A stretch of 64,000 nucleotides of DNA, taken from a marine gamma proteobacterium HTCC2080 (GTDB lineage Bacteria > Pseudomonadota > Gammaproteobacteria > Pseudomonadales > Halieaceae). The stretch is taken from positions 1-64,000 of the forward strand of contig AAVV01000007.1 of the NCBI GenBank assembly GCA_000169115.1, given 5' to 3'. A model generated the notes under the pieces. That model was given only the letters and a program-made list of their open reading frames with translations. It was not told the DNA's origin and did no database searches. Below, one piece after another: positions 17,593 to 47,668 of the stretch. The position numbers were made by a program, and so were the translations under genes. Position 1 is the first letter of the stretch. Each line of letters starts with the position of its first letter.

Positions 17593-17611
17593 ACATTTTA
17601 AATATAAAACG
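17593..17611. promoter_or_regulatory. MarR-type operator copy 1 (marR/aminobenzoyl-CoA operon gap)
   Basis: ACATTTTAAATATAAAACG, an imperfect inverted repeat of the same type as five other sites in the window. It lies between the divergent marR and 2-aminobenzoyl-CoA monooxygenase/reductase genes, nearer marR, where it could serve autoregulation. Confidence 0.65.
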
Positions 17612-17630
17612 TTTTGTCTATACTAGTCTA

Positions 17631-17650
17631 ACATTTTAGATTTAAAGTAT
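17631..17650. promoter_or_regulatory. MarR-type operator copy 2 (marR/aminobenzoyl-CoA operon gap)
   Basis: ACATTTTAGATTTAAAGTAT. The right half, TTTAAAGTAT, is nearly the same as the right halves at 33081 and 47649. Its centre is 38 bp from that of copy 1, and it lies 30 bp before the start of the monooxygenase/reductase gene, a position suited to repression. Confidence 0.7.
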
Positions 17651-17680
17651 CAGGGCTGATAGCGCTGTGAAGGAGTTGTT

Positions 17681-20002
17681 ATGAAAGTGGTATGTGTAGG
17701 TGGAGGCCCTGCCGGGCTTTACTTCGGCATTAGCATGAAGCTTCGCAACCCCGAGCATGAAATCGAGATCTACGAACGAAACAAGCCTGATGATACTTTC
17801 GGCTGGGGAATTGTATTTTCGGATCAAACTGTCGACAACATCATGGCAAACGATCCTGTTAGCGCCCAAACTATCATCAATGAATTTATTCACTGGGACC
17901 TCATTGACTGCCATGTCAACGGCCAAGTCGAGCGCTCAGGCGGCCACGGGTTTATTGGGCTTGGGCGTAAACGTTTTCTGCAACTCCTTCATGCTCGGGC
18001 CCGTGAACTTGGCGTAACATTAAAATTTGAGCAAGAATTTAGCCTCGACGATATTGACGGTAAATTTGGCGATGCTGACCTAATCGTCGCCAGTGATGGT
18101 CTCAACTCTAAAATCCGCAACAGTAATCTTGAAGTTTTTGAGAGTTCCATAGAGGCGCGCCCCAACAAATTTGTATGGCTAGGAACTCATCAAACTTTTC
18201 GCGATGCGTTTACCTTCATCTTCGAAAAAACTGATCACGGTTGGATTTGGGCACACGCCTATCAATTCGATGACAACACCTCCACATTCATCGTTGAGAC
18301 CACGCCAGACGTTTACGACGCGCTGGGATTTGAGCACATGAGTCATGCAGAAAGCGCGGAGACTTGCCGAAAAATCTTCGAACAATATCTCGATGGCCAC
18401 ACCTTAATGACGAATTCAGGCCATGTTCGCGGGTCTGCCTGGATCAATTTTCCTGCCGTTTACTGCGACAATTGGATTAAAGACGACCGCGTGGTGCTTA
18501 TCGGCGATGCCGCTCACACGGCGCATTTTTCGATTGGTTCGGGTACCAAATTGGGCTTGGAAGACGCGATATCACTAGCCAAACACCTCAACGTTGATAC
18601 CTCAGTTCCAAACGCACTGAGGGCCTATCAAGAAGAGCGCAAAATAGATGTATTAAGGCTTCAAAATAGCGCCAGAAACGCCATGATTTGGTTTGAAAAT
18701 GTTCCCCGCTATATCGAGGCTTTTGACCTCAAACAATTTAACTACTCGATGCTGACGCGCAGCCAGCGGGTCAGTCATGAAAACCTTCGACTTCGTGACG
18801 CCGAGTGGCTCGAGAGCATGGAGCAACACCTGACTACGACCTTTAGTGGAGACGGGTCACAAGGCCCAACTCCCCCAATGTTTCTCCCTTTTCAGCTGAA
18901 AGATATGAAACTCAACAACAGGGTCTGCGTCTCACCCATGTGCATGTATAGCGCCGTAGACGGCCTCCCTGATGACTGGCATCTCGTACATTACGGCGGC
19001 CTAGCTAAGGGCGGTGCGGCATTGGTCTATACCGAGATGACTAACATTAGCGCTGACGCACGAATTACCCCCGGATGTACGGGGATCTGGAACGACGAGC
19101 AAACTGAAGCATGGGCTCGTATTACCCGCTTTGTGCACAACAGCACCCAGGCAAAAATGGCAATTCAAATTGGCCATGCCGGCCCCAAAGGAGCCACGCT
19201 AGAGCCTTGGAAATGGGATCCCGCCATACTTGATGAGCCGTTACCCGCGGGTCAGCAGTGGCCATTATTATCGGCGAGCGACCAACCCTTTGACGACTAC
19301 AGCCCAGTCCCGAAAGCCATGACTCGTGAAGATATGGACCACGTCCTTCAACAACATGTAGAAGCGGTAAAACGTGCCATTAAGGCTGGCTTTGACATGA
19401 TCGAAATGCACGCAGCTCATGGTTATTTGTTGTCGTCCTTTATTACGCCCGCGTTGAATCGGCGTGTCGATGAATATGGCGGCTCTTTGGAAAATAGAAT
19501 GCGGTACCCTCTTGAGGTCTGCACCGCAATGCGGAAAGCTTGGCCCGTGGAAAAACCCATGTCCGTTCGCATATCAGCACATGACTGGTTGGGCGCTGAA
19601 GGCGTGACTGAAGACGACTGCGTGGCAATTGCAACCGCCTTTATTGCGGCGGGTGCTGACATTGTGAACGTGTCCACCGGTCAAACGAGCCACCAAGCCA
19701 AACCTCAGCCGGGACGGATGTTCCAAACCCCTCTCTCAGATCTCATTCGTAACGAGGGCGGCATGCCGACCATCGCTGTGGGTAACATTTATGAGATCGA
19801 TCACGTGAACAGCATCATCGCGGCAGGCAGGGCCGATCTTGTATGCCTGGCGCGGCCGCACCTAGCAGACCCGAACTGGACCCTGCATGCAGCAGCCGAA
19901 ATGGGCTATCGCGGGAAAGGCGCAGCGGAACCCCATCAATACTTCTTGGGTTATCGACAGGCCCATACACTGGCCGATCGTGCACGTGAGGCAGCATCGT
20001 GA
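17681..20002 (+). CDS. 2-aminobenzoyl-CoA monooxygenase/reductase-type fusion (salicylyl-CoA 5-hydroxylase/oxidoreductase family)
   Basis: Bifunctional flavoprotein of 773 residues. The N-terminal half is an FAD aromatic hydroxylase (GGGPAG at residues 7-12; GDAAHTAH near 275). From about residue 400 it becomes an old-yellow-enzyme barrel ([35 protein letters not shown] near 575). This architecture and length are those of the aerobic anthranilate enzyme that hydroxylates 2-aminobenzoyl-CoA at C5 and then reduces the ring to a 2-amino-oxocyclohexene-carboxyl-CoA. It heads an operon with SDR, enoyl-CoA hydratase and acyl-CoA dehydrogenase genes and has two MarR-type operators upstream. Salicylyl-CoA or another ortho-substituted benzoyl-CoA remains possible. 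Confidence 0.9.
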
Positions 20003-20754
20003 GCCGCCATGCGCTCATTACCGGGGCTGGAACTGGTATCGGTGCGGCTATTGCAAAACAGTTGTACCGCGAAGGCCATAACGTCTCTTTGATAGGTCGG
20101 CGACTTGAACCTTTGGCGACACTTGCGGAAACACTGGGCAACTCCTGCCGTGCCATTACTGGCGATGTCACCGATCGGGAGAGTATTGAGGCGGCATTTT
20201 CTGAGGCTACCACCAACTTTGGTCCCGTAGAGATACTCATTAACTGCGCGGGAGTGGCGCCCTCAGCCCCCTTTCATCGCATCGAGTTTGATGACTGGCA
20301 AAAGACCCTAGACGTCAATCTAAACGGAGTATTTCACTGCACACAAATTGCCTTGGGCGATATGAAGGCTTCCGGTTGGGGGCGAATTGTCACCATTGCC
20401 AGTACTGCTTCCCTCAAAGGCTTTGCCTACGTCAGCGGGTACTGCGCGTCTAAGCACGCTGCACTTGGCTTGACTCGCGCACTGGCGCTCGAAACTGCTC
20501 AGCAAGGGATTACAGTCAATGCAATCTGCCCCGGTTATGTAGACACTGATATTGTGCGCGATTCCATTCAGGGAATTATGGCAAAAACGGGACGCAGTGA
20601 AGCCGAAGCACTGCAACACTTTACTCAGAGCAATCCTCAAGGGAGACTCATTGAAGCATCTGAAGTGGCTGCCTCAGTGAGCTGGTTGTGTTCAGAAGGC
20701 GCTGCCAGTGTTACTGGACAAGCGATTGCCATTGATGGCGGTAGCACCGCATAG
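19999..20754 (+). CDS. Short-chain dehydrogenase/reductase of the aminobenzoyl-CoA operon
   Basis: Classical SDR of 251 residues: nucleotide-binding TGAGTGIG (about 8-15), NCAG, catalytic Ser in IASTASL, YCASK with the catalytic Tyr/Lys, and the C-terminal [10 protein letters not shown]. The GTG start overlaps the upstream stop by 4 bp (GTGA), so the two genes are translationally coupled. It probably oxidises or reduces a ring hydroxyl or oxo group of the alicyclic CoA intermediate. A 3-oxoacyl-CoA reductase role is the general family alternative. Confidence 0.9.
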
Positions 20755-20768
20755 GAGACAGGAAGCGT

Positions 20769-21581
20769 ATGCAAACAAACACCATGAGTCAGTATCAGGC
20801 CGAACACTTTCTTTGGGCATGTGAAGACGGTGTCGGAACGATCACCCTTAACCGCCCAGAGCGAAAAAATCCGCTAACATTTGAGTCCTATGCCGAATTG
20901 CGCGACCTCTTTCGATCCCTGGTATATGCGACTGACGTAGATGCCGTTGTTGTTCGCGGTGCCGGTGGTAACTTTTGCTCTGGTGGTGATGTTCACGAGA
21001 TCATTGGCCCCCTTACCGAAATGAATATGAAGGACCTGATGGCCTTCACTCGGATGACCGGAGATTTAGTCAAGGCGATGCGGGCCTGCAGGCAACCGAT
21101 TATCAGCGCCGTGGAAGGCATTTGCGCTGGCGCTGGCGCCATCATTGCCATGGCAAGTGACCTGCGCTACGCCGCTCCCTCTGCCAAAGTCGCTTTTCTT
21201 TTCAATCGAGTTGGTTTGGCCGGCTGCGATATGGGGGCTTGCTCAATTCTTCCAAGGATTATTGGCCAGGGGCGTGCCAGCGAATTACTGTACTTTGGAC
21301 GAGCAATGAACGCCGAGGAAGGTGAACGCTGGGGATTTTTTAATGGCCTCGGCGACTCGCCCGAAAAGGACGCACAAAAAGCCGCGCAACGCATTGCCTC
21401 AGGCCCCACCTTTGCCAATGGCATTACCAAAAACCAATTGCACCAGCAGTGGAATATGTCTGTAGATCAATCGATAGAATGTGAGGCACAGGCCCAGGCA
21501 ATTTGCATGCAAACTGAGGACTTCAAGCGCGCCTACCGCGCCTTTGTTGGCAAAGAAAAGCCAGTCTTCGCAGGCGACTAA
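20769..21581 (+). CDS. Enoyl-CoA hydratase/isomerase-family protein
   Basis: Crotonase-fold protein of 270 residues. It shows the oxyanion-hole stretch [15 protein letters not shown] and the second CoA-binding loop [18 protein letters not shown], then [17 protein letters not shown], where the usual catalytic acid is replaced by the DMG region. The shift from the standard PE-x-x-G motif hints at a hydrolase, isomerase or ring-opening crotonase rather than a simple hydratase. Position between the SDR and the acyl-CoA dehydrogenase suggests action on the alicyclic CoA ester after aminobenzoyl-CoA reduction. Confidence 0.87.
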
Positions 21582-21610
21582 ACCGCCTCGAGCGGCTTGA
21601 GGAAACGACG

Positions 21611-22795
21611 ATGAGCGAAACAAGTTATCTAGGTTGGCCCTTCTTTGAAGAGCATCACAGAACACTGGCGAGTACGTTGGACGCCTGGGCTAAGGTACAC
21701 ATGGCGGAACTTACCGCCAACGAGCATGAAGATCTCGATGGCACTTGCGTCGCACTGGTGCGAGCCTTGGGCGATGCAGGCTTCACCGGGTACGCGGTGC
21801 CCGCTAGTGGCGGTGGAAACCAGGAAAAACTCGATGTTCGAACGCTTTGCATTATCAGAGAGACATTAGCTCGCTATAGTGCCCTCGCAGATTTCGCCTT
21901 TGCTATGCAGGGTTTGGGAAGCGGACCCATCTCACTATTCGGCTCTGAACAACAGCAGTCAAACTATCTCAATGCCGTAGCTAAAGGCCACAAAATCAGC
22001 GCTTTCTCTCTGTCTGAGCCCAATGCGGGCTCAGATGTTGCCGCTATGACCTGCTCTGCGCAGCGCGATGGCGATGAATGGGTTTTAAACGGCACTAAGA
22101 CATGGATTTCCAATGCGGGGATCGCTGACTTCTACACGGTATTTGCGCGTTCCAGTGACGCCGGCGGAGCCAAAGGCATTAGCTGCTTCATCGTCGAAGC
22201 GGGAACACCTGGGTTCGAGGTCACAGAGCGTATTGATCTGGTCGCCCCCCACCCACTGGGAACACTGCAATTTACCAACTGCCGAATTCCCGCGGCAAGT
22301 TTGGTGGGGGAAGAAGGCAGAGGTTTTGGCATCGCCATGGCCACTCTTGATGTATTTCGTTCAACAGTAGCTGCAGCCGCGCTAGGCATGGCTCGTCGTG
22401 CCCTTGATGAAACCCTCGATTACACCGCAGAGCGCGACATCTTCGGCGGAAAACTCGGTGACCTGCAGCTTGTGCAAGCCAAGATTGGCGAAATGGCTTT
22501 AGGCGTCGATGCCAGTGCGTTGCTTGTATACCGCGCAGCATGGACAAAAGACTGTGCGGCAGAGCGCGTCACTCGGGAAGCTGCCATGGCGAAATATCAC
22601 GCGACAGAGACTGCCCAGCAAGTTATTGATGCTGCTGTGCAACTGCACGGCGGTAAGGGCGTCACCAAGGGATACATTGTGGAATCACTGTATCGCGATA
22701 TTCGAGCCTTGCGAATCTATGAGGGCGCTAGCGAGGTTCAGACGACCATTATCGCCCGGCAAACGATTAATAATCACGAGCTCGGGCAGGCCTAG
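21611..22795 (+). CDS. Acyl-CoA dehydrogenase of the aminobenzoyl-CoA operon
   Basis: Acyl-CoA dehydrogenase of 394 residues: [15 protein letters not shown] and [20 protein letters not shown] in the FAD domain, [18 protein letters not shown], and the C-terminal [10 protein letters not shown] with the catalytic Glu. It ends the operon begun by the monooxygenase/reductase fusion. It could oxidise the cyclohexane-type CoA intermediate or a ring-opened dicarboxylyl-CoA. Confidence 0.9.
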
Positions 22796-27473: not shown

Positions 27474-28478
27474 CTACGTAGCTATCCACAGTAGATAAGC
27501 CACAATAATTGCTGCAATAAAAAGCGTCTCGCCCACAATTAATAAAACAGGCTTTAACCCAATAGTCATGACTTCTTGCATAGAAGTGCGTATTCCCAGA
27601 GCGGCAATAGCGACCAATAAAAGCGCAGGGGCGAGATTCGCGACTGGTTGAATAAGGTCTCCCGGAATCAACCCCGTGCTATTTACCGCAAATAAAACAA
27701 TAAAGCCGATGAGAAAGAAAGGAAAGGTAGGCGCCTTTTCCCGATCCGCGGCGGCGCTAACTTTGTTGCGAAAAATAATGCCTATCATCAGTACGACCGG
27801 CACCAACATTGCCACTCGTAGAAGTTTTATAAAGGTCCCTAAGTCACCTGTTGTGGGGGATACGCTATAGCCTGCCCCGACAACCTGCGCAACATCGTGA
27901 ATCGTCGCACCGATAAAAATACCCATTTCTTGGTCATTAAACTGCAAAACGTCACCGATAATCGGATAGAGCACCATGGCGATGGTACTCAAGCTTGTCA
28001 CGCCGATAATGGTAAACAACGTCTGACGCTGGGTATCCATTCCTTTAGGAAGGACGCTGCTAATCGCCATCGCTGCCGAGGCGCCACAAATCGCCACGCT
28101 GCCTCCTGTTAATACGCCCAGCTGTCGCTCACAACCCAAGAGCCGGCCTAGCACAACACCAAACAGCAGGGTTGCCAGCACTGCAGAGAGAACGAGTAGC
28201 ACGGGGGTCCAACCTAACGAAGCAACATCTGCGACGGTAAGACGCAGCCCAAGCAACGCCACACCTAACCGCAAGGCTTTAACCGCTACAAGCTCTAACC
28301 CCGGTCCAACGCGAGGCGTTTCGTTCAAAAAATGAAAGGCCATCCCGAGCAACAGGCCCATGAGCATAGCGGGCGCACCATAACGCTGCGCAATGAATGA
28401 GGCCGCAAGTGCCACCGCAGTGGCTACGGCAACACCGGGAAAGTATTGTGCCCAAGCGGCAATTAGACGATCTATCAC
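27474..28478 (-). CDS. YeiH-family (UPF0324) putative membrane exporter
   Basis: Integral membrane protein of 334 residues with about ten hydrophobic helices and the family stretches MGLLLGMAFHF, LGVALLGLRLTVADV and LTGGSVAICGASAAMAISSVLP. The family is annotated as putative sulfate exporters; related proteins occur with sulfonate and taurine catabolism. The GTG start overlaps the iorB stop by 4 bp, so it is the last gene of a cyclase-iorA-iorB-permease operon. Co-transcription with an indolepyruvate oxidoreductase is unexpected for a sulfate exporter and suggests transport of an organic acid or by-product. Confidence 0.85.
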   Translation of the reverse strand: MIDRLIAAWAQYFPGVAVATAVALAASFIAQRYGAPAMLMGLLLGMAFHFLNETPRVGPGLELVAVKALRLGVALLGLRLTVADVASLGWTPVLLVLSAVLATLLFGVVLGRLLGCERQLGVLTGGSVAICGASAAMAISSVLPKGMDTQRQTLFTIIGVTSLSTIAMVLYPIIGDVLQFNDQEMGIFIGATIHDVAQVVGAGYSVSPTTGDLGTFIKLLRVAMLVPVVLMIGIIFRNKVSAAADREKAPTFPFFLIGFIVLFAVNSTGLIPGDLIQPVANLAPALLLVAIAALGIRTSMQEVMTIGLKPVLLIVGETLFIAAIIVAYLLWIAT

Positions 28479-33615: not shown

Positions 33616-33678
33616 AAACGAGAGATGTTGCAGACACACAGAGCAAAAACGAACGCCAACACGAAAGGTCTTTAACGA

Positions 33679-34788: not shown

Positions 34789-34872
34789 AGTGAAAAAAAT
34801 CTGGCCGTACTTAGCTGAAACAAGCAATAAAATTAACCTAAAAATACAATAAACCACTCTCAGGAGCTCATG

Positions 34873-37356: not shown

Positions 37357-37886
37357 TGGCAGCCGGTCCTACCCGGCGTGATGTGATTTCCGGGGGCGCT
37401 ACCGCCCTCGGTTTCTTTTTAATTGGCGGGCAGCAGGTCTGGGCGACAGCTAGTGAAGCCGTAGCCCGAGATTTTACGCCTCAAATACTTTCCGCCCCCC
37501 AAATCAAAGCGTTGACTGCCCTCACCGAGCACTTGGTTCCGGGTAGTGCCAAGGCCGGCATCAGTGCCTACATTGATGCACAACTAGCCGCGGGTGCAGA
37601 CTCACTCCTCATGGCAAAATATGTAGGGGTTCCTGTTGAACAACAGATAGATTTTTACTCATCAGCGCTTAATGCAGTTATGAATGCTTTAGAAAAAGGA
37701 TCGGTTGATGCTGTAGCCGCTACGATGGCAACAGACACCGTTCCTGATTGGCAAGGCCCACCCGCAAGCTATGTATTCTTTTTGCTCAGAGCAGATGCAC
37801 TCGACGCCACCTACGGGTCAGAAGCCGGATTCGCAACCCTTGATATCCCCTACAGTGCCCACATTCGCCCGGAGACTACTTGGTGA
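37356..37886 (+). CDS. Gluconate 2-dehydrogenase subunit 3-family protein with Tat signal
   Basis: Small accessory subunit of 176 residues. The N-terminus has a twin-arginine motif (TRRDVISGGA) and a hydrophobic stretch, so it should be exported folded. The remainder matches the subunit-3 family (ALTALTEHLVPGSAKAGISAYIDAQLA). The start codon overlaps the TonB receptor stop (TAATG), and the end overlaps the GMC gene. In known enzymes the Tat tag on this subunit carries the signal-less GMC flavoprotein to the periplasm. Confidence 0.87.
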   Translation: MAAGPTRRDVISGGATALGFFLIGGQQVWATASEAVARDFTPQILSAPQIKALTALTEHLVPGSAKAGISAYIDAQLAAGADSLLMAKYVGVPVEQQIDFYSSALNAVMNALEKGSVDAVAATMATDTVPDWQGPPASYVFFLLRADALDATYGSEAGFATLDIPYSAHIRPETTW

Positions 37887-39445
37887 CAACAAGCGCACCC
37901 GATACCGTCATTGTTGGCGCCGGCGCAGCGGGCTTACTTTTGGCAGCGAGACTGTCTGAAGCCGGCGAGTCCGTAGTCGTTTTAGAAGCCGGGCCCGAGC
38001 GCTCAACCGACGACATGATCAGCTCCCAAATCTGGGCTCGAAAACTCAAATGGTCTGGTGCTGCTGTTGAAGAAACGGGCACTCACCCCGTAGGACATGC
38101 GTTTAACGCAGGTTCCGGTACTGGTGGCTCAGCAGCGCATCATTACGGCGTCTGGCTGCGCTTGCATCCTGAAGATTTCAAAGTACGCAACAAGCATAAG
38201 CGCAGTCTCGACTGGCCACTGTCCTATGAAGACCTGCAACCTTACTACGATCGTATCCAAGATTCCGTCGGCCTTAGCGGCGACCACACGGCGGAAGTTT
38301 GGCGACCACCCGGGACTCCCTATCCCATGCCACCACTGCCAGTCTTCGCACAAGGACGCGTTCTCGACCGGGGCTTTCAGGCAACCGGTCGAAGCACCGC
38401 CCCGCTGCCGTTAGCCATCAACAGTATTCCTCGGAATGGTCGAGCCCCCTGCCAGTTTGATGGCTGGTGCGACGCAGGATGTCCAATCGGTGCCCTCGCG
38501 AACCCACTCGTCACATCGTTACCCCAAGCTCTAAAAGCAGGTGCCGAAATTCGCTACGGCGCTCAGGTACTTAGAGTGCTTCGGGATTCGGGAAATGCGA
38601 AAAATATCCGTGCCGTTGAATACTCCCAGCACGGCGAACGACACCAGATAGCTGCTAAACGTTTCATTATTGCGGCATTCACCGTACAAACCAGTCGTAT
38701 TCTTCTGAATTCTGGTGACAGCTCAGCAGTTGCTCCAGGCAATCGTCACGATCAGCTGGGTCGATATATAACCACACACCCAGCCGGAACAGTCTTCGGA
38801 TTATTTGATGACGAAACGACGCCCCACCTCGGGGTCTCAGGGGGCCAACTACTGTGCCATGATGACTATGCCGACAAAGATCAGGCCGGGGGCTTTGGTT
38901 CGTCACAATGGTTAATTGCTAACGCCATTAAACCCCACGACTTATTAGGCTATGGAACTTCCAGGCCCGACATTACCGGTGCAGCACTGCGCCCATGGCT
39001 TCAGCGAGCCGCAAAACATCTGGCCAACATGACACTAGTTGTTGAAGACATTTCAAGCTCAAATAACCGCGTAACCCTAAGCGATAGCCTCGACGATGTA
39101 GGCATGCCAAAAGCCCATGCTCACCACGACATTGACCCTGACGCAGCTGCTCGTTGGCAACAAAGAGTTGAAGAAGGCGAGGAAATTTTCCGTGCTGCCG
39201 GAGCCAGTGAAGTTTGGCACGGGCCCCGAGTAGCTATGCACATTATGGGCGGCACTGTCATGGGAAGTCATGAGGCAGAATCTGTCACCGACGAGTTTGG
39301 TCGCGTGCACGATACCGACAACCTATATGTCTCTGGACCCAGCCTTTTCCCCAGTAGCGGCGCTGTTAATCCGACATTTACGCTGACTGCATTAGCCGAG
39401 CGCCAAGCCGACCACCTACTCGGCATACCGCTGGCAAATCCCTGA
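37883..39445 (+). CDS. GMC-family oxidoreductase, catalytic subunit
   Basis: FAD-dependent dehydrogenase of about 520 residues: VIVGAGAAGLLLAARLSEAGESV at the N-terminus, GSGTGGSAAHHYGVWLRLHPEDF, CDAGCPIGALANPL, and the C-terminal NLYVSGPSLFPSSGAVNPTFTLTALAERQADHL containing the active-site Asn region. GTG 37883 overlaps the preceding stop as GTGA and follows GGAGA. No export signal is visible, so it probably travels with the Tat-tagged small subunit and acts in the periplasm on an alcohol or sugar acid delivered by the TonB receptor. No cytochrome c subunit gene is adjacent. Confidence 0.9.
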   Translation: MTTSAPDTVIVGAGAAGLLLAARLSEAGESVVVLEAGPERSTDDMISSQIWARKLKWSGAAVEETGTHPVGHAFNAGSGTGGSAAHHYGVWLRLHPEDFKVRNKHKRSLDWPLSYEDLQPYYDRIQDSVGLSGDHTAEVWRPPGTPYPMPPLPVFAQGRVLDRGFQATGRSTAPLPLAINSIPRNGRAPCQFDGWCDAGCPIGALANPLVTSLPQALKAGAEIRYGAQVLRVLRDSGNAKNIRAVEYSQHGERHQIAAKRFIIAAFTVQTSRILLNSGDSSAVAPGNRHDQLGRYITTHPAGTVFGLFDDETTPHLGVSGGQLLCHDDYADKDQAGGFGSSQWLIANAIKPHDLLGYGTSRPDITGAALRPWLQRAAKHLANMTLVVEDISSSNNRVTLSDSLDDVGMPKAHAHHDIDPDAAARWQQRVEEGEEIFRAAGASEVWHGPRVAMHIMGGTVMGSHEAESVTDEFGRVHDTDNLYVSGPSLFPSSGAVNPTFTLTALAERQADHLLGIPLANP

Positions 39446-39467
39446 TATCTCTCGCACCTGCCAGATG

Positions 39468-39481
39468 CTTTAAGCTTAAAG
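39468..39481. promoter_or_regulatory. MarR-type operator copy 5 (before the FadB-to-Rieske operon)
   Basis: CTTTAAGCTTAAAG is a perfect 14-bp palindrome matching the core of the other sites. It lies about 100 bp upstream of the FadB-like start codon and 22 bp after the GMC stop, so it probably controls the seven-gene operon that follows. Confidence 0.7.
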
Positions 39482-39581
39482 TGTTTGTGTTTGTTTGATA
39501 AACTCCCATGAACACCGGACTGCCTATACACTCAACAACACGGCACGTGCCGAATTACACGCATTACCAAGGGGTTTCAAG

Positions 39582-41681
39582 ATGGGAACAGTGGTGAACT
39601 ACGAGCGACATGGTCAGATCGGTGTTATCCGCATCAACAACCCACCTGTTAATGCGCTATCCCACGCGGTCAGATCTGGAATCGTGGATGCACTGGCAAC
39701 CGCCGCTGCTGATGACTCATCAGCCGTTGTACTATGCTGTGAAGGCCGAACATTTATTGCCGGAGCCGACATCACCGAATTCGGTAAACCACCTCAAGCG
39801 CCGTCGCTGCCTGACCTTCTGCATGTACTCGACCACCACCCAAAATTAACCGTCGCCGCCATTCACGGGACCGCATTAGGGGGCGGCTTTGAGGTTGCAC
39901 TAACCTGCAACTACCGGATCGCCTTAGCCAGTGGAAAAGTGGGGTTGCCTGAAGTCAAGTTAGGTCTGCTCCCCGGCGCAGGCGGTACCCAGCGCACTCC
40001 CCGGCTTGCCGGCCTCCCTGCCGCTGTCGAGCTGATTACATCAGGTAATCCCATAAACGCCCAGCGCGCTATGGCACTGCAACTCGTGGATAAAGTCGCT
40101 GAGGATAATCTGTTAGACGCAGCCATCGCTTATAGCGTCGCGCTCGTGGAGCAAAGTGCTCCCCAAAGACAGGCAAGCGCTTTGACGCTATCCGTAAGTA
40201 CAGAGGACACCGACCTTATAGCGAGTATGAGGGCTAAACTTTTGAAAAAAACTCGGGGCGAACGTGCGCCACAGCGCATCCTCGACTGCTTGCTGGCCGC
40301 CGCTGACAGCCCCTTTGAGACAGGCTTAAAACGAGAGCGCGAAGAGTTTATGGCATGCCTTGAAGACCCACAATCCGCCGCTTTACGACACATGTTCTTT
40401 GCGGAGCGTGCGGCTGGAAAAATCGACAGCCTGCCTAAAGACACCAAAGCCCTAGACATTGCCAGCGTGGGAATAATTGGCGCAGGCACCATGGGCGGCG
40501 GTATTGCGATGTGTTTCGCCCAGGCAGGCATCGCAGTCACCCTCGTCGATATGACTGACGAGGCTGTTAAAGGGGGCCTCGAAAAAATTGCTAAGAACTA
40601 CGCGATCAGCGTCAAAAAAGGACGACTTACAGTCGCTCAAACAGACGCAATCCTGGCCAACATTACCACCTCATCATCCTTTGACGACCTCGCTAATGTC
40701 GACATGGTGATCGAAGCGGTCTTTGAGAATCTCGAAGTCAAGAAGGAGGTCTTTGGGAAACTGGACGTCATCTGCAAGCCCGGCGCCGTTCTCGCAAGCA
40801 ACACTTCGTACCAAAGTATCGACGCTATAGCAGCCGCTACTTCACGTCCCGAGTCAGTTTTAGGCATGCATTTTTTCAGCCCAGCCAATGTCATGAAGCT
40901 GCTTGAAGTCGTGAAAGGTGCCAGCAGCAGCGATATCGTCATCGCAACCGCGATGGCTGTTGGTAAAAAAATTGGCAAAGTGTCCGTGCTATCCGGTATG
41001 TGCTACGGGTTTATCGGTAATCGTATGCTGCGGCACTACGGTAGAGAAGCCGCCCTTTGCCTCATTGAGGGAGGTACGCCCGCTCAAATCGACAGCGCTA
41101 TGGAGTCTTGGGGAATGGCTATGGGCCCTCTAGCAGTTAGTGATCTAGCGGGGCTAGACATAGGCTACAAGGCGAGAGAACAACTTACTGCGGAACAAAA
41201 GGGAGATCCCGCGAGCTACATGGTTGCAGATCGCTTGGTAGAAGCCGGCCGGCTGGGACAAAAATCTGGTGCAGGCTATTACCAATACGATCCCGAGACT
41301 CGTCAGCGGCAGGAAGATCCCGCCGTCATGGCAATAGTCGCTGAAGCACGTCGGGAGCTGGGTATCACACCCCGCCGTTTTGAAGACGAAGAAATTATTA
41401 ATCGCCTGACCCTTGCCTTAGCCAACGAGGGCGCGAAACTTTTGCAAGAAGGTATTGCACAACGCGCCAGTGATATTGATGTTGTATATTGCTACGGCTA
41501 TGGCTTTCCCAGATTCAAAGGCGGCCCCATGCATACCGTTGAATCAATGGGCCTTGATAAAGCCGTCTCGCTGCTCAACGAATTCCATGATCAACTCAAC
41601 CCTGAGCATTGGCAGGTCGCTCCACTACTCACGAAACTGGTAGCAAATGGAGGACAGCTCGCTGATTCCCACCGTGACTGA
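39582..41681 (+). CDS. Bifunctional enoyl-CoA hydratase/3-hydroxyacyl-CoA dehydrogenase (FadB/FadJ-like)
   Basis: Two-domain beta-oxidation enzyme of about 699 residues. The crotonase half keeps both catalytic glutamates (GGGFEVAL; GLPEVKLGLLPGAGGTQ). The dehydrogenase half starts at VGIIGAGTMGGGIAMCFAQAG and contains MHFFSPANVMKLLEVV. ATG 39582 has AAGGGG 7 bp upstream and leaves the palindrome at 39468 in the promoter; the longer open frame from 39495 begins at TTG. It is first in an operon with ligase, thiolase-like, DUF35, SDR and Rieske genes, so it acts on a ring-derived acyl-CoA rather than ordinary fatty acids. Confidence 0.9.
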   Translation: MGTVVNYERHGQIGVIRINNPPVNALSHAVRSGIVDALATAAADDSSAVVLCCEGRTFIAGADITEFGKPPQAPSLPDLLHVLDHHPKLTVAAIHGTALGGGFEVALTCNYRIALASGKVGLPEVKLGLLPGAGGTQRTPRLAGLPAAVELITSGNPINAQRAMALQLVDKVAEDNLLDAAIAYSVALVEQSAPQRQASALTLSVSTEDTDLIASMRAKLLKKTRGERAPQRILDCLLAAADSPFETGLKREREEFMACLEDPQSAALRHMFFAERAAGKIDSLPKDTKALDIASVGIIGAGTMGGGIAMCFAQAGIAVTLVDMTDEAVKGGLEKIAKNYAISVKKGRLTVAQTDAILANITTSSSFDDLANVDMVIEAVFENLEVKKEVFGKLDVICKPGAVLASNTSYQSIDAIAAATSRPESVLGMHFFSPANVMKLLEVVKGASSSDIVIATAMAVGKKIGKVSVLSGMCYGFIGNRMLRHYGREAALCLIEGGTPAQIDSAMESWGMAMGPLAVSDLAGLDIGYKAREQLTAEQKGDPASYMVADRLVEAGRLGQKSGAGYYQYDPETRQRQEDPAVMAIVAEARRELGITPRRFEDEEIINRLTLALANEGAKLLQEGIAQRASDIDVVYCYGYGFPRFKGGPMHTVESMGLDKAVSLLNEFHDQLNPEHWQVAPLLTKLVANGGQLADSHRD

Positions 41682-43308
41682 AATGCTGCCAGAGAGCCCC
41701 AGAGATGTGCTGGCCCTGACTGCCACGCGCTTCCCTAACCATGATGCTCTACATATTCCAATAAGCGCCTGTCAGCACTACTCGTCGCAGGAAATTACTC
41801 TAAGCTACAGCGAACTCGATGCTGCTGTCTCTCAAGCCACTGAGGTTTGGCGACAGGCGGGGGTCGCCGGTCGCGTTGCTCTGATGTTGGAAAATCGCCC
41901 CGAATTTTTCGTACAGTGGCTTGCGCTCAACGCCCTTGGAATTTCCGTAATTCCCATTAATCACGAAATGCCAGATGCCGAAATCCCCTATTATTTAGAG
42001 CACGGTGAGGCCACGGCCGTACTGACACTAGGCGCACACCGTACCCGACTCATGAACGTTATCGCCTCGCTGACAAAATCAATTCCAGTTATTACCCAAG
42101 ATGAAGTTAGTACGCTGAAGCTCGCTGACGTACCGGGGATAACCGAAACTACAACTGACTCAAACAGCGAATGCGCCCTACTCTATACATCAGGAAGCAC
42201 TGGTAAACCCAAGGGCTGCCTACTTAACAATGATTACTTCCTCCAACAGGGCGTTTGGTATCAAAACCTGGGTGGTCACATTGACTTACGCGAGGGGCGC
42301 GAACGCCTGCTTACGCCCCTGCCGCTAAGCCATATGAACGCCATGTCAGTCTCCACCATGGCCATGTTTATGACCGGCGGATGCCTGATTCAGCTAGACC
42401 GCTTTCATCCCGGAACATGGTGGCAAAGCCTGCGTGACTCGAAGGCTACTGCCATCCACTATCTAGGCGTTTTACCGGCGATCTTGTTAGCCTTACCCGA
42501 AGACTCCCAGGACGACTTTTCCACGCAAATTCGCTTTGGGTTCGGTGCCGGGGTCAATCCAGCGCACCATGAACGCTTTGAAAAGCGCTTTGGATTTCCC
42601 TTGATCGAAGCATGGGCTATGACAGAGTGCGGGGCTGGGGGCGCCATCATTGCCTGTGACGAGCCCCGGCATGTCGGCCATTGCTGTTTCGGCAAACCTC
42701 CAGAGGCTATGGAATGGCAACTTGTGGACGAGCAGAAACTCCCAGTAGAAAAAGGAAGACCTGGCGAGTTACGAGTACGCGCCCGAGGTCCCAACCCACA
42801 AAAAGGCTATTTTTCTGGCTATCTAAAAAATGCTGAGGCTACCGCCGACGCTTGGGCAGATGGCTGGCTCAATACAGGTGATGTTGTCGTAGAGCTCGAA
42901 GACGGCAATCTCGCTTTTGTGGATCGCAGAAAAAACATCATCCGGCGCTCTGGTGAAAACATCTCGGCGTTAGAAATTGAGGCAGCTCTGGGAGACCACC
43001 CGGCGATTAAGTCTGCCATCGCCACTGCCGTTTCAGACGAGATACGCGGGGATGAAGTTGCCTTGTGCGTTATTCTCAACACAGCAGTCCCAAACAACCT
43101 CGATACGGCCCGTGCCATACAAGCAATCGCCCTAGAAAAGCTGGTGTACTTTAAAGCGCCAGGCTGGATTCTCTTTGCGGAAACCCTACCGGTGACGGCC
43201 GCTAACAAACCTAAGCGTGCCGATATAAAACAATATGCCAAAACACGCGTCAGCAACGGTGAAGCCTATGACCTTCGTGCTTATAAAACTCGGAGAAAGC
43301 CGGCATGA
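41647..43308 (+). CDS. ATP-dependent acyl-CoA ligase (CaiC-like AMP-binding family)
   Basis: Class I adenylate-forming enzyme of 553 residues: LLYTSGSTGKPKG P-loop, IEAWAMTECGAGG, ADGWLNTGDVV, RRKNIIRRSGENISALEIE hinge, and the catalytic Lys in NKPKRADIKQ. The start is uncertain: ATG 41647 overlaps the previous gene by 35 bp, and ATG 41683 just after its stop is possible. As the only ligase in the Rieske operon, it should activate the carboxylic acid substrate or its dioxygenated product. An anthranilate-activating role is the alternative. Confidence 0.88.
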   Translation: MEDSSLIPTVTEMLPESPRDVLALTATRFPNHDALHIPISACQHYSSQEITLSYSELDAAVSQATEVWRQAGVAGRVALMLENRPEFFVQWLALNALGISVIPINHEMPDAEIPYYLEHGEATAVLTLGAHRTRLMNVIASLTKSIPVITQDEVSTLKLADVPGITETTTDSNSECALLYTSGSTGKPKGCLLNNDYFLQQGVWYQNLGGHIDLREGRERLLTPLPLSHMNAMSVSTMAMFMTGGCLIQLDRFHPGTWWQSLRDSKATAIHYLGVLPAILLALPEDSQDDFSTQIRFGFGAGVNPAHHERFEKRFGFPLIEAWAMTECGAGGAIIACDEPRHVGHCCFGKPPEAMEWQLVDEQKLPVEKGRPGELRVRARGPNPQKGYFSGYLKNAEATADAWADGWLNTGDVVVELEDGNLAFVDRRKNIIRRSGENISALEIEAALGDHPAIKSAIATAVSDEIRGDEVALCVILNTAVPNNLDTARAIQAIALEKLVYFKAPGWILFAETLPVTAANKPKRADIKQYAKTRVSNGEAYDLRAYKTRRKPA

Positions 43309-44489
43309 AGGACTATAGCGGCGTCGTCTTAACAACGCCCATTAGTATGGGCTATGCGCGCCAAAGCCCCCACGGGGCCGCATGGTTTGTCGGCTCAGTG
43401 TTACGCGAAATGATAAGCGCTGCCGGCCTCACAAAAAAAGATATAAACGGCTTTTCTGTCTCGAGTTTTTCTCTGGGAATCGATTCTGCAGTTGCGCTTA
43501 CTCAGCACTTTGGACTTTGTGTTCGCTGGTTAGAGCAGGCAAATGTGGGGGGCGTTTCGGGGATACTGACGCTGCGGCGGGCTGCCCGAGCGGTTCAGTG
43601 TGGGGAAGCGGACATTGTTGCCTGCATCGGCGGCGATGGCGCTGCACATCGATCTTTTGAACATACTGCTGCCCACTTTTCCAACTGGAGTACCGACGCG
43701 GCATTCCCTTACGGTGCTGCAGGCCCTAACGGCCCTTTCAGCCTGATCACTGCTCATTATATGGAGCGCTATCAAGCCCAACGCGAAGACTTTGCCCGTA
43801 TCTGCCTTGACCAACGTTACAACGCCAACCATTTTCCTGGCGCGCTGCTCGGCCATAAAAAACTTTCGCTGTCAGACTATTTGAACGCAAGACCCATTGC
43901 TGGCCCCCTGCATCTCTTTGACTGCGTCATGCCCTGTGCCGGCGGCGAGGGCTTTTTGGTTATGAGCGAAGAACGTGCGCGGCAGCTCAAACTTCCGGCC
44001 GTTAAAATTCTTGCCGCTGATGAGTGCCACAACGCTCATGCTGACGATCCAGTACAGGAGCGAGGGGGCTGGACTCAATACATTGAGGGTCTCTACAACC
44101 GCGCAGCTGTGGGGCCCAAAGATGTCGATTTCTTGCAAACCTATGATGACTATCCGGTGATCAGTATGTTGCAAATGGAAGACTTGGGGTTCTGTGGCAA
44201 AGGGGAAGCGCCCGAGTTCGTGGGACAGACAGATATGCGCTTTGACGGCTCCGGTCCCGGCCTGAACAAACTGCCCCACAACACCTCAGGCGGGCAATTA
44301 TCCTGCGGTCAAGCAGGCGCTGCTGCTGGGTTTCTCGGGGTTACCGAATCTCTGCGGCAACTCACTGGTCAGTCGCAACAAAATCAGGTGAGCAATGCCC
44401 GCCTAGGCTTGGTGAGTGGCTATGGCATGGTTAATTACGATCGGGGCATTTGCACCGCGGCGGCTATGCTGCAAGGGGTTGACCGTTGA
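43305..44489 (+). CDS. SCP2-thiolase-like protein lacking the thiolase Cys and His; candidate retro-aldolase
   Basis: Thiolase-fold protein of 394 residues. Where thiolases have the nucleophile Cys before SG, this has ANVGGVSG. The usual GHP-GASG near the C-terminus reads CGQAGAAAG, so both classic catalytic residues are gone. It retains TYDDYPVISMLQMEDLGFC, typical of the Ltp2 lipid-transfer/thiolase-like branch. It is followed with a 4-bp overlap by a DUF35 protein, the same pairing as the steroid side-chain aldolase Ltp2-ChsH2(DUF35), which splits a tertiary beta-hydroxyacyl-CoA. A retro-aldol side-chain cleavage is therefore preferred over thiolysis. Confidence 0.85.
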   Translation: MKDYSGVVLTTPISMGYARQSPHGAAWFVGSVLREMISAAGLTKKDINGFSVSSFSLGIDSAVALTQHFGLCVRWLEQANVGGVSGILTLRRAARAVQCGEADIVACIGGDGAAHRSFEHTAAHFSNWSTDAAFPYGAAGPNGPFSLITAHYMERYQAQREDFARICLDQRYNANHFPGALLGHKKLSLSDYLNARPIAGPLHLFDCVMPCAGGEGFLVMSEERARQLKLPAVKILAADECHNAHADDPVQERGGWTQYIEGLYNRAAVGPKDVDFLQTYDDYPVISMLQMEDLGFCGKGEAPEFVGQTDMRFDGSGPGLNKLPHNTSGGQLSCGQAGAAAGFLGVTESLRQLTGQSQQNQVSNARLGLVSGYGMVNYDRGICTAAAMLQGVDR

Positions 44490-45031
44490 ACATCAAAGAT
44501 AAGATGCGTAAGCGGCTCAAACTCAGCCGCCCTTCGCTGAGAGCGCGGGCACGGCCGCCAAAGCATCGCTCGGTTTGTGGCAGTCAATTTTCGGCTGCGA
44601 ATCTCCCCGGTGTTTTGCAACTCCAAAACTGCACAGACTGTGGCCACGTCCAGTATCCCCCTGCGGAGTTATGCGGCGCCTGTTTAGGCGGCACTCTGAT
44701 CTATAAGGAAACAGCGTGCACGGGCACCCTGCTCGCTCAATCCCAACTTCACCACAGCCTTTGGGAGTACTTTAAACGGCGTATTAAAAGAGCCCCGTGG
44801 CCCATAGCCTCAGTGCAACTCGATGTTGGCCCAGTCGCTATCGTTCACCTTACCGAACTGGACCTAGACACCGGAGATCGAGTGAAGGTGTTCTCTCATT
44901 CAGATGCGTCACGTTCGGTCGTACTCATCGCAGTACCTGCCGCAACGGATATCACTACACCAGAGTTGCGACAGGCCGTCATTGTCGGAATGCAACTCGA
45001 TAAATCCGCCGAACGCCTAAAGGGCGTCTAG
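44486..45031 (+). CDS. DUF35 zinc-ribbon/OB-fold partner of the thiolase-like protein
   Basis: Small protein of 181 residues with a rubredoxin-like zinc ribbon (NCTDCGHVQYPPAELCGAC: C-x2-C and C-x2-C) and a following OB-fold, the DUF35/acyl-CoA-associated architecture. Its TTG start overlaps the thiolase-like stop by 4 bp and has AAGGGG 7 bp upstream. The basic N-terminal 30 residues are unusual for the family. DUF35 proteins bind and activate thiolase-like partners, in some cases as aldolases, so a two-protein complex is expected. Confidence 0.88.
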   Translation: MNIKDKMRKRLKLSRPSLRARARPPKHRSVCGSQFSAANLPGVLQLQNCTDCGHVQYPPAELCGACLGGTLIYKETACTGTLLAQSQLHHSLWEYFKRRIKRAPWPIASVQLDVGPVAIVHLTELDLDTGDRVKVFSHSDASRSVVLIAVPAATDITTPELRQAVIVGMQLDKSAERLKGV

Positions 45032-45064
45032 TAAAACGCTCAGACATCAAGGAGGTTTACCGCG

Positions 45065-45793
45065 ATGGCCCATGATAGTTTCATTGTAACGGGAGGAAGT
45101 ACCGGTATTGGCGCGGCTATCTGTTCGCGCCTGCTAGAGCGCGGCTATCGAGTCATCAACCTCTCTCGGCGCCCCCTTGAACACCCCAGCAAACAGCTCG
45201 AAAATATGACGCTTGATCTAAGCGACAGGGCTGCCGTTAAAGAAGCAGCACAAACGATTACCCAACGTTACAACGTCACTGGACTCATTCACAATGCCGG
45301 TCTTATACGGCCGAATTTAGTTGAGGACGTAAATCTGGAAGATTTTGACTATCTTAGTGAGGTACATATAGGAGCTGCGATTACTCTGGCTCAAGCGGTG
45401 ATACCCAGCATGAAATCACAGACGTTTGGACGTATCGTTTTAATCACATCTAGAGCGGCTCTAGGCCTCGCAACACGCACCAGTTACAGTGCGACTAAGT
45501 CAGGCATGATGGGCATGGCTCGCACCTGGGCTTTGGAATTAGGCCAGTACGGCATTACTGTAAACACCGTTGCCCCCGGCCCCATTCAGGACACTGAAAT
45601 GTTCGAGGCCGTTGTGCCAGCTGACAGCGAAAAACTAGACGATATGGCCGCTAGCATCCCGGTACAGCGTTTAGGCAGATCGACCGACGTCGCACATGCC
45701 GTGGACTTTCTTGCCGATGAGGCTTCGGGTTTTATCACGGGACAAACACTTATGGTTTGTGGCGGTGCTAGTCTAGGTTCTTTAGCGCTATAG
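45065..45793 (+). CDS. Short-chain dehydrogenase/reductase in the Rieske operon
   Basis: Classical SDR of 242 residues: TGGSTGIG (about 9-16), HNAG, Ser in LITSRAALG, YSATKSG catalytic motif, TGQTLMVCGG. A strong AAGGAGG precedes ATG. Directly upstream of the Rieske alpha gene, the position of cis-dihydrodiol dehydrogenases in many ring-hydroxylating operons. It may instead act on a hydroxyacyl-CoA together with the FadB-like enzyme. Confidence 0.9.
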   Translation: MAHDSFIVTGGSTGIGAAICSRLLERGYRVINLSRRPLEHPSKQLENMTLDLSDRAAVKEAAQTITQRYNVTGLIHNAGLIRPNLVEDVNLEDFDYLSEVHIGAAITLAQAVIPSMKSQTFGRIVLITSRAALGLATRTSYSATKSGMMGMARTWALELGQYGITVNTVAPGPIQDTEMFEAVVPADSEKLDDMAASIPVQRLGRSTDVAHAVDFLADEASGFITGQTLMVCGGASLGSLAL

Positions 45794-45804: not shown

Positions 45805-47139
45805 ATGCAGAAAATTCCTGATCGTAACTTTGATGCGCTGGTCACACCGACCAAGCTACACCGCAGCCTGTATACCGACCCCGATATTTTTGAACTTGAA
45901 ATGAGCCGAATTTGGGGTGAGGCCTGGATTTTTATTGGCCATGAATCTCAGGTACCGAACTTTGGTGACTACTTTACAACCAACATCAATCACAAAGTGC
46001 CGGTTGTAATGATTAGAGATAAAGACGCCGCTGTGCACGTACTTCATAATCGTTGCGGCCATAAGGGTGCCAAAGTTGTCGATAAACAATCGGGCAACGT
46101 ACGAGGGGCTCTACGCTGTGCTTACCACGGCTGGAGCTATCGGTTTGACGGCTCACTCTTAAAAATACCCAATCAACAAGGCTATGAAGATACCGGATTT
46201 GATGCCTCAGACCCCTGTTATAGCATGCAGCCGCTTGCGCAAGTTGCCAGTTATCGAGGGTTTGTCTTCGCCACGTTGTCTAGCACCATCACCGATCTTG
46301 TAACTTGGATGGGGGGCGCTATTACCTGCTTCGACAATCTCTGCGATCGTGCGCCCGAGGGCGAGGTAGAAGTCGCTGGTGGCGTCTTGCGCTACGAGCA
46401 TGACTGCAACTGGAAATTCATCCTCGAGAATCTCAATGACACAATGCACCCAATGGTCGTCCATGAATCATTGGTCAAAGCCGCCGAATCTTATATTGCC
46501 ACCCTACCCCAAGAAGCCGTCGAGCAACGGCGGGAAGCAGAAATCATTCCTCCCTTCGGGGCAAGCTATGAAAACTTTGAGAACAGTGGCATAACAGGGT
46601 TTGAATACGGTCATCACTACGATGGCGGTAAAACAAGTATTCATGCTGACTACTCGGTGGATCCAGATTATCACGCCGCCATGGTCGCAGCTTATGGTGA
46701 AACTAGAACTCGAGAAATTTATGCCTTCAACACCCACAACGTACTTTATTATCCGTCGCTGACCATTAAGTGCGCTATACAAAACATCCGCATCATTCGC
46801 CCTGTTAGCGTTGATCGCTTTGTCGTCGAGAGCTGGTCATTCAGACTTAAGGGTGCGCCCGATTCGATGCTGCAGCGAACGGTGCTTTACAGTCGTCTGA
46901 TCAACTCAGCGATGGGCATGGTTGGACCCGATGACCTAGAGGTTTATCGGCGGGCGCAGAAAGGGCTCGAGTGTCCAGCTAATGATTGGGTTGAATTTCA
47001 TCGGCAGTATGGGAAGGATCGAATACTTGCAGATCGAGTCGAAGGGGGTGGCACGTCAGATTTAGATATGCGCACCCAGTATCGAGCATGGAAGGCTTAC
47101 ATGGAGCAGGGTCAACAGCTAGGAATGAAAGATGCCTGA
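45805..47139 (+). CDS. Aromatic ring-hydroxylating dioxygenase, alpha subunit
   Basis: Rieske oxygenase large subunit of 444 residues. Ligands of the [2Fe-2S] cluster are C84-x-H86 and C105-x2-H108. The mononuclear iron site is in ENLNDTMHPMVVH (H215, H220), with a distal acidic ligand later. It overlaps the beta-subunit gene by 8 bp, so a multimeric alpha-beta oxygenase is expected. A MarR-type operator 6.3 kb upstream controls the operon. IAA-degrading bacteria use a two-subunit Rieske dioxygenase for the first attack on the indole ring, which is the proposed role here. Benzoate- or anthranilate-type dioxygenation is the alternative. No ferredoxin or reductase gene adjoins. Confidence 0.9.
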   Translation: MQKIPDRNFDALVTPTKLHRSLYTDPDIFELEMSRIWGEAWIFIGHESQVPNFGDYFTTNINHKVPVVMIRDKDAAVHVLHNRCGHKGAKVVDKQSGNVRGALRCAYHGWSYRFDGSLLKIPNQQGYEDTGFDASDPCYSMQPLAQVASYRGFVFATLSSTITDLVTWMGGAITCFDNLCDRAPEGEVEVAGGVLRYEHDCNWKFILENLNDTMHPMVVHESLVKAAESYIATLPQEAVEQRREAEIIPPFGASYENFENSGITGFEYGHHYDGGKTSIHADYSVDPDYHAAMVAAYGETRTREIYAFNTHNVLYYPSLTIKCAIQNIRIIRPVSVDRFVVESWSFRLKGAPDSMLQRTVLYSRLINSAMGMVGPDDLEVYRRAQKGLECPANDWVEFHRQYGKDRILADRVEGGGTSDLDMRTQYRAWKAYMEQGQQLGMKDA

Positions 47140-47605
47140 TCTCGCTGCGATTGAGGAATTTCTCTACAAAGAAGCCAGTTTTCTAGACCGTCCCAATCTC
47201 GATAGCTGGATAGAGCTTTACACCGAGGATGCCTACTATTGGATTCCCGCAACCGAGGACCAAACAGACCCTATTAACCACGTCTCTCATGTTTATGATG
47301 ATCGCGTCATGATGGAAATTCGACGGCGCAACTTTGTTCACCCTCGTGCCGCTTCCAAAGACAGCCAAACGAGATGCTCACACATCATAGGAAACGTTCG
47401 AATTAAGGAACAATCTCCTGAAGGTGGCCTTCTCATCGAGTCCACCCAGCATGTCGTGGTTTGGTACCTGAACGAGCAGCGAATTTATGCTTTTACAGCC
47501 CAGCATGAACTCAGGCCTGCAAATGGCAGCTTCAAGATAAAAAGCAAACGCGTCAATTTGATAAACCCAGACGCCGCCCAAAAATCACTGGTTATTTATT
47601 TGTAA
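47132..47605 (+). CDS. Aromatic ring-hydroxylating dioxygenase, beta subunit
   Basis: Small subunit of 157 residues with the NTF2-like cone fold typical of dioxygenase beta subunits: EEFLYKEASFLDRPNLDSWIELYTEDAYYWIPA, SQTRCSHIIGNVRI, KSKRVNLINPDA. It is translationally coupled to the alpha subunit and ends the operon. Structural role, stabilising the alpha-beta assembly. Confidence 0.9.
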   Translation: MPDLAAIEEFLYKEASFLDRPNLDSWIELYTEDAYYWIPATEDQTDPINHVSHVYDDRVMMEIRRRNFVHPRAASKDSQTRCSHIIGNVRIKEQSPEGGLLIESTQHVVVWYLNEQRIYAFTAQHELRPANGSFKIKSKRVNLINPDAAQKSLVIYL

Positions 47606-47648
47606 AAAAGACCAGTCTGAATAGCCAGAGCTTGGTAAGCCAGCTCAG

Positions 47649-47668
47649 ATATTTTAAACTTAAAGTAT
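47649..47668. promoter_or_regulatory. MarR-type operator copy 6 (before glutaryl-CoA dehydrogenase)
   Basis: ATATTTTAAACTTAAAGTAT; its right half is nearly that of the copies at 17631 and 33081. It ends 24 bp before the preferred start codon of the glutaryl-CoA dehydrogenase gene, so this lower-pathway gene appears to be in the same regulon. Confidence 0.7.

Follow-up and report, generated by a model that had tools for sequence, protein, structure and literature searches.

The window described here is the stretch of 64,000 nucleotides at positions 1 to 64,000 of the forward strand of contig AAVV01000007.1 (assembly GCA_000169115.1), from the marine gamma proteobacterium HTCC2080, a member of the Halieaceae. 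It contains a gene for a MarR-family regulator, six copies of a palindromic sequence, and the genes that stand behind these copies; the first of them, of the PRK08255 type, we take to encode a 2-aminobenzoyl-CoA monooxygenase/reductase (ACMR). A sequence-only reading of this DNA had proposed that the six copies define one MarR regulon extending over 30 kb. The regulator gene and the putative operators, the latter read as 20-mers without strand, are as follows.

17024..17518, minus strand: MarR-family regulator, aminobenzoyl-CoA/IadR2-type clade; TTG start with GAGGTGAG ahead of it, by our reading
17593..17612: putative operator A; overlies TTTAAA, the -35-like element of the ACMR promoter
17631..17650: putative operator B; 38 bp from A
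33081..33100: putative operator C, between the divergent isatin hydrolase and ridA genes; kept in relatives
33597..33616: putative operator D, ahead of the gene for an LLM-class monooxygenase; kept in relatives
39465..39484: putative operator E, ahead of the FadB-to-Rieske operon
47649..47668: putative operator F, ahead of an acyl-CoA dehydrogenase gene (ACAD2)

We found all six site sequences where they had been placed by the sequence-only reading, except that site A ends at 17612 rather than 17611, and the palindromes it had singled out were exact (8-bp arms around GGTA at 33081, 18 bp at 33598 and 14 bp at 39468). As had also been claimed, the sites are intergenic and ahead of genes, at 16–97 bp from the likely start codon on at least one side, the start codons being those of our own choice. 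The arms of the 20-mers pair at 8 or more of 10 positions in five of the six sites and at 7 of 10 in one; among the approximately 64,000 20-mers of the window, 41 reach 8 of 10, the sites counted in. When the genome (3,576,081 bases in 25 contigs, 99% complete) was scanned with the 20-mer ATACTTTAAGCTTAAAGTAT at up to 3 mismatches, 4 places were found, all 4 inside the window, and a backwards-read control gave 0; the two marR-proximal sites diverge too far for this search. The degenerate form AYWYTTTARRYWTAAARYRW, which was built from the sites themselves and is hence partly circular, matched the six sites and nothing else in the genome at 0 mismatches, and its further matches, outside the window, were one with 1 mismatch and nine with 2, the control giving 4+2. 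Because AYWYTTTARRYWTAAARYRW was derived from the sites, a leave-one-out weight matrix was run in six trials, in none of which did a non-site position of the window reach the score of the held-out site; with the full matrix the sites scored 25–31 and the next window position 11. The six sites are real and specific, and by the scans with ATACTTTAAGCTTAAAGTAT and AYWYTTTARRYWTAAARYRW the motif is not frequent genome-wide.

Repeats of this kind might be something other than operators, such as promoter elements, terminators, remnants of repeat elements or chance occurrences, and the sites are indeed rich in A and T, those of the marR pair coinciding in part with promoter-like hexamers. We nevertheless consider such an origin most improbable, given the near-absence of the motif elsewhere in the genome and the retention of sites at the same promoters in relatives. 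Moreover, a terminator scan detected no terminator-like site over any of the operators, and terminators or promoter elements were rejected as the whole explanation.

Among genomes of the genus, occurrence of the motif followed that of the MarR gene. Ten genomes, HTCC2080 included, matched the MarR closely (E 1e-64 or better) and contained 3–8 copies of AYRYTTTANNNNTAAARYRT at up to 1 mismatch; the other 15, which gave no such match, contained 0–2, with motif controls of 0–3. A rank test of motif count against MarR presence gave p 1e-5, a value that ignores relatedness and includes several incomplete genomes; 13 genomes of other families (counts 0–9, controls 0–7) were excluded from it. Sites are also retained at corresponding promoters. 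In the relatives G002 and G003 the motif stands at each of the six positions, and in G027, which belongs to another family and has a different gene order, the marR pair is present with 2 mismatches in each site, the isatin hydrolase/ridA site with 0 and the LLM site with 3. Further stretches, fetched from G004, G005, G007, G010, G020 and G024, showed a site ahead of ridA in 6/6, ahead of the LLM gene in 6/6, and ahead of ACAD2 in all 5 of these genomes in which that gene was seen. The fadB site has 2 mismatches in G007, and in G005 some 310 bp separate it from the gene, a GMC fragment intervening, and isatin hydrolase lies on its other side. The tandem pair at marR recurs in relatives with a spacing of 37–41 bp.

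Of 43 loci, 41 had a shorter core, TTYA-N4-TRAA, no more than 150 bp ahead of ACMR, and 0 had the control pattern; the core occurs in 11/935 background windows, true sites included. It should be noted that the 43 loci were of our choosing (20 are Variovorax-like, from 39 genomes with a match), that the relatives among them are not independent, and that the core was generalised after some of these promoters had been seen. By lineage, the core precedes ACMR in 6/6 loci of Trinickia/Paraburkholderia, 3/3 of Halomonadaceae, 20/20 of the Variovorax-like genus, 7/7 of Halieaceae and kin, and 4/4 of genus g376 of another class, from which 5 stretches were fetched, one of them without ACMR. In Variovorax-like iad loci it also precedes the SDR gene beside the IadR2-type MarR in 11 of 18 promoters (control 0/18), 20 having been fetched and 2 being without a located start.

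Some of these loci deserve mention for their own sake. In genus g376 (L172-L176), motif-like copies, some with 2–3 mismatches, stand at SDR, ACMR, marR and CoA-ligase promoters, which suggests a multi-site regulon in another class too. The contig JANWLL010000091.1 (L061, 2955-8494), titled Candidatus Eremiobacteria, has the gene order ACMR-SDR-MarR-enoyl-CoA hydratase-acyl-CoA dehydrogenase and may reflect gene transfer or a misbinned contig. Two loci of Rhizobium lusitanum have isatin hydrolase and IorAB near this type of MarR and no ACMR in the 20 kb fetched; a one-mismatch motif lies about 300 bp before iorA in each (L067, 697-1001; L069, 218-521).

Promoter anatomy was most informative at the marR pair. 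We observed there a sigma-70-like promoter for ACMR on the plus strand, with TTTAAA at 17597-17602, inside A, and TATACT at 17619-17624, between A and B; site B begins at the expected transcription start. With one minus-strand candidate, this region contains 2 promoter-like sites in all, compared with 0.3 expected. Of 14 aligned Halieaceae-type promoters, 12 retain this TATACT, G002 and G003 being the exceptions, and in 20/20 ACMR promoters of the Variovorax-like type a palindrome of the same core comes after TTGACA and reaches the expected -10 region. These arrangements are consistent with a mechanism in which a MarR dimer would bind each AT-rich site, with its core TTTA-N4-TAAA. At the tandem pair in marR's own divergent promoter, A would cover the -35-like element and B the start point, and therefore the ACMR promoter, and probably that of marR too, would be shut. 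Single sites would govern isatin hydrolase-IorAB and ridA, the LLM monooxygenase-TonB receptor-GMC genes, the FadB-to-Rieske operon and the acyl-CoA dehydrogenase.

Several observations weigh against this assignment. At C, D and E the promoter scan gave no consensus promoter, and at F it gave minus-strand promoters only, which point in the wrong direction for the gene; as no properly oriented promoter was recovered there, the mode of repression at C to F is conjectural. Sites were missing at fadB and ACAD2 in G027, ahead of fadB in G004 and G010 at the cut-offs used, and directly ahead of the relocated isatin hydrolase in G020, and for some relatives the filter retained just one member of the marR pair, or the contig broke off there. 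The shorter core is missing before ACMR in G239 (1/2 with G032) and in the Eremiobacteria metagenome-assembled genome (0/1), and before the SDR in 7/18 Variovorax-like IadR2 loci. Furthermore, G032, with a MarR 42% identical to that of the window, gave no matches to AYRYTTTANNNNTAAARYRT. Conversely, G037, of another family, gave 9 one-mismatch matches on nine contigs (1 control), and G009, which is 82% complete, has one perfect copy (L230, G009:C30, 7153-7172), neither of the two having a match to the window MarR. The last two cases would be accounted for if the palindromes served a different regulator that was co-inherited with the cluster, and the genome does have other MarR genes (6 domain matches, 4 over the cut-off). 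We regard a different regulator as improbable all the same, in that the only tandem pair of the window is at the marR promoter itself, the pair recurs in relatives, and both the motif core and the recognition-helix pattern of the protein (below) are common to several lineages. Taken together, the scarcity of the motif elsewhere, its co-occurrence with the MarR gene in the genus and the retention of sites at the same promoters in relatives support the proposal of one MarR regulon over 30 kb. We think it very likely that the six palindromes are operators of the MarR at 17024-17518 and form a single regulon, at which this protein would bind and repress; that confidence extends to operators and regulon, and a lower one applies to the effector.

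The MarR domain of the protein scores above the curated cut-offs of PF12802 (MarR_2, 45.5 bits, cut-off 27) and PF01047 (MarR, 41 bits, cut-off 24.6). As the sequence-only reading had stated, its gene is the only MarR gene of the region: one of the 6 MarR_2 matches in the genome falls on the contig of the window. The best solved relative is PDB 3boq (88 bits), the Variovorax IadR structure 7kfo reaching 27 bits. In a tree of 53 rows, from which 2 short rows had been dropped and in which several long branches were flagged, the protein groups with ACMR-operon MarRs of Trinickia, Halomonadaceae and a Variovorax-like genus. That clade also holds L171, which is the second MarR of the iad locus in genome G765, itself Variovorax-like, and which has a weakly supported exact place (92/58); the IAA (indole-3-acetate)-sensing type, represented by L101 (303 bits to 7kfo), lies outside it with support of 100/99. 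By sequence, then, the window MarR groups with the IadR2 group, a comparison in which L171 stood for the second iad-locus MarR and the published IadR2 sequences were absent. The recognition-helix pattern V, G-N and G is present in at least 90% of the 46 rows of the clade, across lineages.

IadR is reported to contact IAA through Tyr15, Ala18, Ser28, His32, Trp45, Arg46 and Val65 (PMC9613470). The window protein has Arg25, Leu28, Glu38, Arg42, Phe56, Asp57 and Arg77 at these positions, so that 7/7 differ, and the Phe and Asp that replace Trp45 and Arg46 are invariant in 46/46 clade rows. An IadR orthologue was ruled out for this protein by the tree and by the contact residues. We also rejected a hidden IadR on another contig (C9), whose MarR is the best IadR match of the genome at 28% identity and 56 bits; a tblastn search of the surrounding 18 kb turned up no gene of the window. 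A bilirubin-type (BilQ) function was likewise discarded: NF045593 is the best NCBIfam model for the MarR, with 42.2 bits against a cut-off of 125, and the bilirubin-reductase models among the matches of the neighbouring OYE-family gene are far below their cut-offs.

The genes at the sites, with their neighbours, are listed below.

15558..16940, minus strand: OYE-family oxidoreductase behind marR (Pfam Oxidored_FMN; NCBIfam models all below cut-off; start at 16940 chosen)
17681..20002, plus strand: ACMR (NCBIfam PRK08255, salicylyl-CoA 5-hydroxylase/oxidoreductase; 1171 bits, cut-off 1078)
19999..22795, plus strand: SDR, enoyl-CoA hydratase and acyl-CoA dehydrogenase of the ACMR operon (hydratase over the PRK08258 cut-off; conserved order)
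27474..28478, minus strand: YeiH-family membrane protein (TIGR00698, 156 bits, cut-off 233)
28475..32160, minus strand: IorB and IorA (iadB/iadA type), indolepyruvate oxidoreductase-like 2-oxoacid oxidoreductase (PRK08312 over cut-off; IOR_alpha below)
32205..32990, minus strand: isatin hydrolase (PDB 5nmp, E 9.6e-99; 4j0n, E 6e-84)
33117..33527, plus strand: RidA-family protein (profile matches)
33679..39445, plus strand: LLM flavin monooxygenase, TonB-dependent receptor, gluconate-2-dehydrogenase-3-like subunit and GMC oxidoreductase (profile matches)
39582..45793, plus strand: FadB-like protein, CoA ligase, Ltp2-like thiolase, ChsH2-like DUF35 protein and SDR
45805..47605, plus strand: Rieske oxygenase alpha and beta, IadDE-like (alpha by PDB matches; beta below cut-offs)
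47675..48877, plus strand: acyl-CoA dehydrogenase ACAD2 (ATG probably at 47693)

Three labels that the sequence-only reading had given to these genes did not stand. Its 'cyclase' is an isatin hydrolase by sequence; its 'RutA-like' LLM gene scores higher with SfnG (179 bits) than with RutA (149 bits) and is under both cut-offs, for a dimethylsulfone and for a pyrimidine reading alike; and its 'gcdH' is an acyl-CoA dehydrogenase that scores below every listed cut-off. The Rieske alpha subunit matches PDB 7yls and 9o71 at E 3e-128 (about 431 bits, the next family reaching 149 bits), entries that we take to be Variovorax IadD, in keeping with the literature passages. The thiolase matches thiolases of the lipid-transfer-protein type, and its partner has ChsH2-type domains. 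An IadDE-type Rieske oxygenase, as sought in iad-like auxin loci, is accordingly present, together with iorA/iadA and iorB/iadB at 28475-32160, and iorA and iorB have been described as markers of such loci (PMC9613470). No IadC-type reductase was seen among the genes annotated in the window, and no search was aimed at it.

From this gene content the regulon is very probably an iad-type IAA pathway that feeds the 2-aminobenzoyl-CoA operon. IAA would be converted to dioxindole-acetyl-CoA and then, by retro-aldol or thiolase-type cleavage, to isatin; hydrolysis would give isatinate, from which oxidative decarboxylation by IorAB would yield 2-aminobenzoyl-CoA, the presumed substrate of ACMR and, after it, of beta-oxidation. 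Another order of the early steps is given for Variovorax in a 2025 preprint (PMC12633357). Descriptions of iad-type loci in print have IAA broken down to anthranilate by way of isatin and isatinic acid; in HTCC2080 entry into 2-aminobenzoyl-CoA is probably direct. The reading predicts auxin catabolism in marine Halieaceae.

What releases the repressor is a separate question, and we lean slightly towards 2-aminobenzoyl-CoA or a close derivative, rather than IAA. We rate it so because the genes common to most loci of this MarR type are those of the ACMR operon, because the IAA branch is optional, and because there is a precedent in CouR, a MarR reported to be released by an aryl-CoA (PMC4737184). 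When stretches from Trinickia, Halomonadaceae and the Variovorax-like genus were searched by tblastn with the genes of the window, neither an isatin hydrolase nor a Rieske gene came up; since this MarR type sits there with ACMR and without them, 2-aminobenzoyl-CoA would be the common denominator. The MarR could instead bind the same sites and respond to another compound of the pathway, namely IAA, isatin/isatinate or free anthranilate, of which anthranilate is the main rival. Such an effector is quite conceivable, if doubtful on the whole: the regulon here spans the whole IAA branch and the Variovorax IadR responds to IAA (PMC9613470). Against it stand the seven altered IAA-contact residues, the report that MarR_50 (IadR2) and MarR_Bj2 do not bind IAA (PMC9613470), and the recurrence of the same MarR type and core with ACMR in those stretches that gave no isatin hydrolase or Rieske match, though anthranilate itself stays a candidate. 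If 2-aminobenzoyl-CoA is the effector, the auxin pathway would be induced by its own late product.

Among the closest known systems is the iad locus of Variovorax paradoxus CL14, with its regulators IadR (MarR_73) and IadR2 (MarR_50) (PMC9613470). It has in common with the window an IadD-like Rieske oxygenase, CoA ligase, thiolase, isatin hydrolase-type cyclase, iorA/iorB and an IadR2-type MarR. The differences are that the best IadR match of the HTCC2080 genome is only 28% identical, that one MarR with six predicted operators seems to serve the IAA branch and the ACMR operon alike, and that genes for a TonB receptor, GMC and LLM proteins are included in the window. The ACMR-operon MarRs of Trinickia, Halomonadaceae and the Variovorax-like genus are 45–58% identical to the window protein and share its core and its ACMR, enoyl-CoA hydratase and acyl-CoA dehydrogenase neighbours, but there marR is one of a row of co-oriented genes, whereas that of the window is divergent. 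Repressors of the CouR type (PMC4737184) resemble it in MarR fold, service in aromatic CoA catabolism and proposed release by a CoA-thioester; sequence similarity to them is remote (PDB 6c28, 24.8 bits), and for the window MarR the effector is our own proposal. As with BilQ, the bilirubin utilization regulator, an OYE-family gene adjoins marR, as it does in many Halieaceae loci, but the score against the BilQ model excludes membership.

IadR2 (MarR_50) was described without a ligand or DNA site (PMC9613470), and the available passages of the original paper, its preprint and a 2023 commentary give neither; it should be noted that the name iadR2 is used elsewhere for a different Pseudomonas gene. 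In the MarR_50 deletion, only gene 51 reportedly rose regardless of IAA (PMC9613470). By its place beside the regulator, the SDR gene preceded by the core in Variovorax-like loci may be gene 51, and if it is, the core would fit that result. The sites described here supply a concrete candidate operator, target genes and a candidate effector for IadR2-type regulators, by which the published open question of their ligand and DNA site becomes testable. Literature searches, with most subscription papers outside their reach, showed among the papers listed no report on the operator letters or on aminobenzoyl-CoA together with a MarR or regulon, and the papers listed for Halieaceae and auxin did not deal with bacteria of this family. 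Judged by its sequence, the regulon is of a known kind but newly arranged, with a single IadR2-type MarR in apparent control of a complete iad-type pathway; our analysis adds to the sequence-only reading its function, probably catabolism of IAA to 2-aminobenzoyl-CoA, and the subgroup of its MarR. As a tentative generalisation, which may about as easily fail as hold, the IadR2/aminobenzoyl-CoA class of MarR, which occurs in several proteobacterial lineages, would read an ancient operator, TTYA-N4-TRAA, and sense 2-aminobenzoyl-CoA, and in the Halieaceae would have taken over a complete auxin-degradation pathway with no auxin sensor.

Finally, some genes of the locus and its relatives merit separate notice. 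The LLM monooxygenase gene (33679-34788) stands behind a putative operator of its own, in the window as well as in those relatives that were looked at, and is not among the iad genes in the literature passages; a terminator-like hairpin at 33566-33588, between ridA and operator D, suggests that the LLM operon is transcribed separately. The TonB-dependent receptor (34870-37356), one of the predicted operator-controlled genes, is a candidate outer-membrane route for indolic compounds. A close Rieske alpha was found in 4/369 genomes in a scan of the class and in 8/398 in a scan of the phylum, HTCC2080 being counted in both; the two scans supplied material for the neighbourhoods and the MarR tree. 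Motif copies stand ahead of other TonB receptors in G004 (L227, G004:C242, 7060-9575) and G009 (L230, G009:C30, 7153-9573). In G004 the motif-bearing TonB gene is followed by a second Rieske alpha/beta pair (L227, 9672-11497), 43% and 34% identical to the window pair and perhaps acting on another indole substrate.

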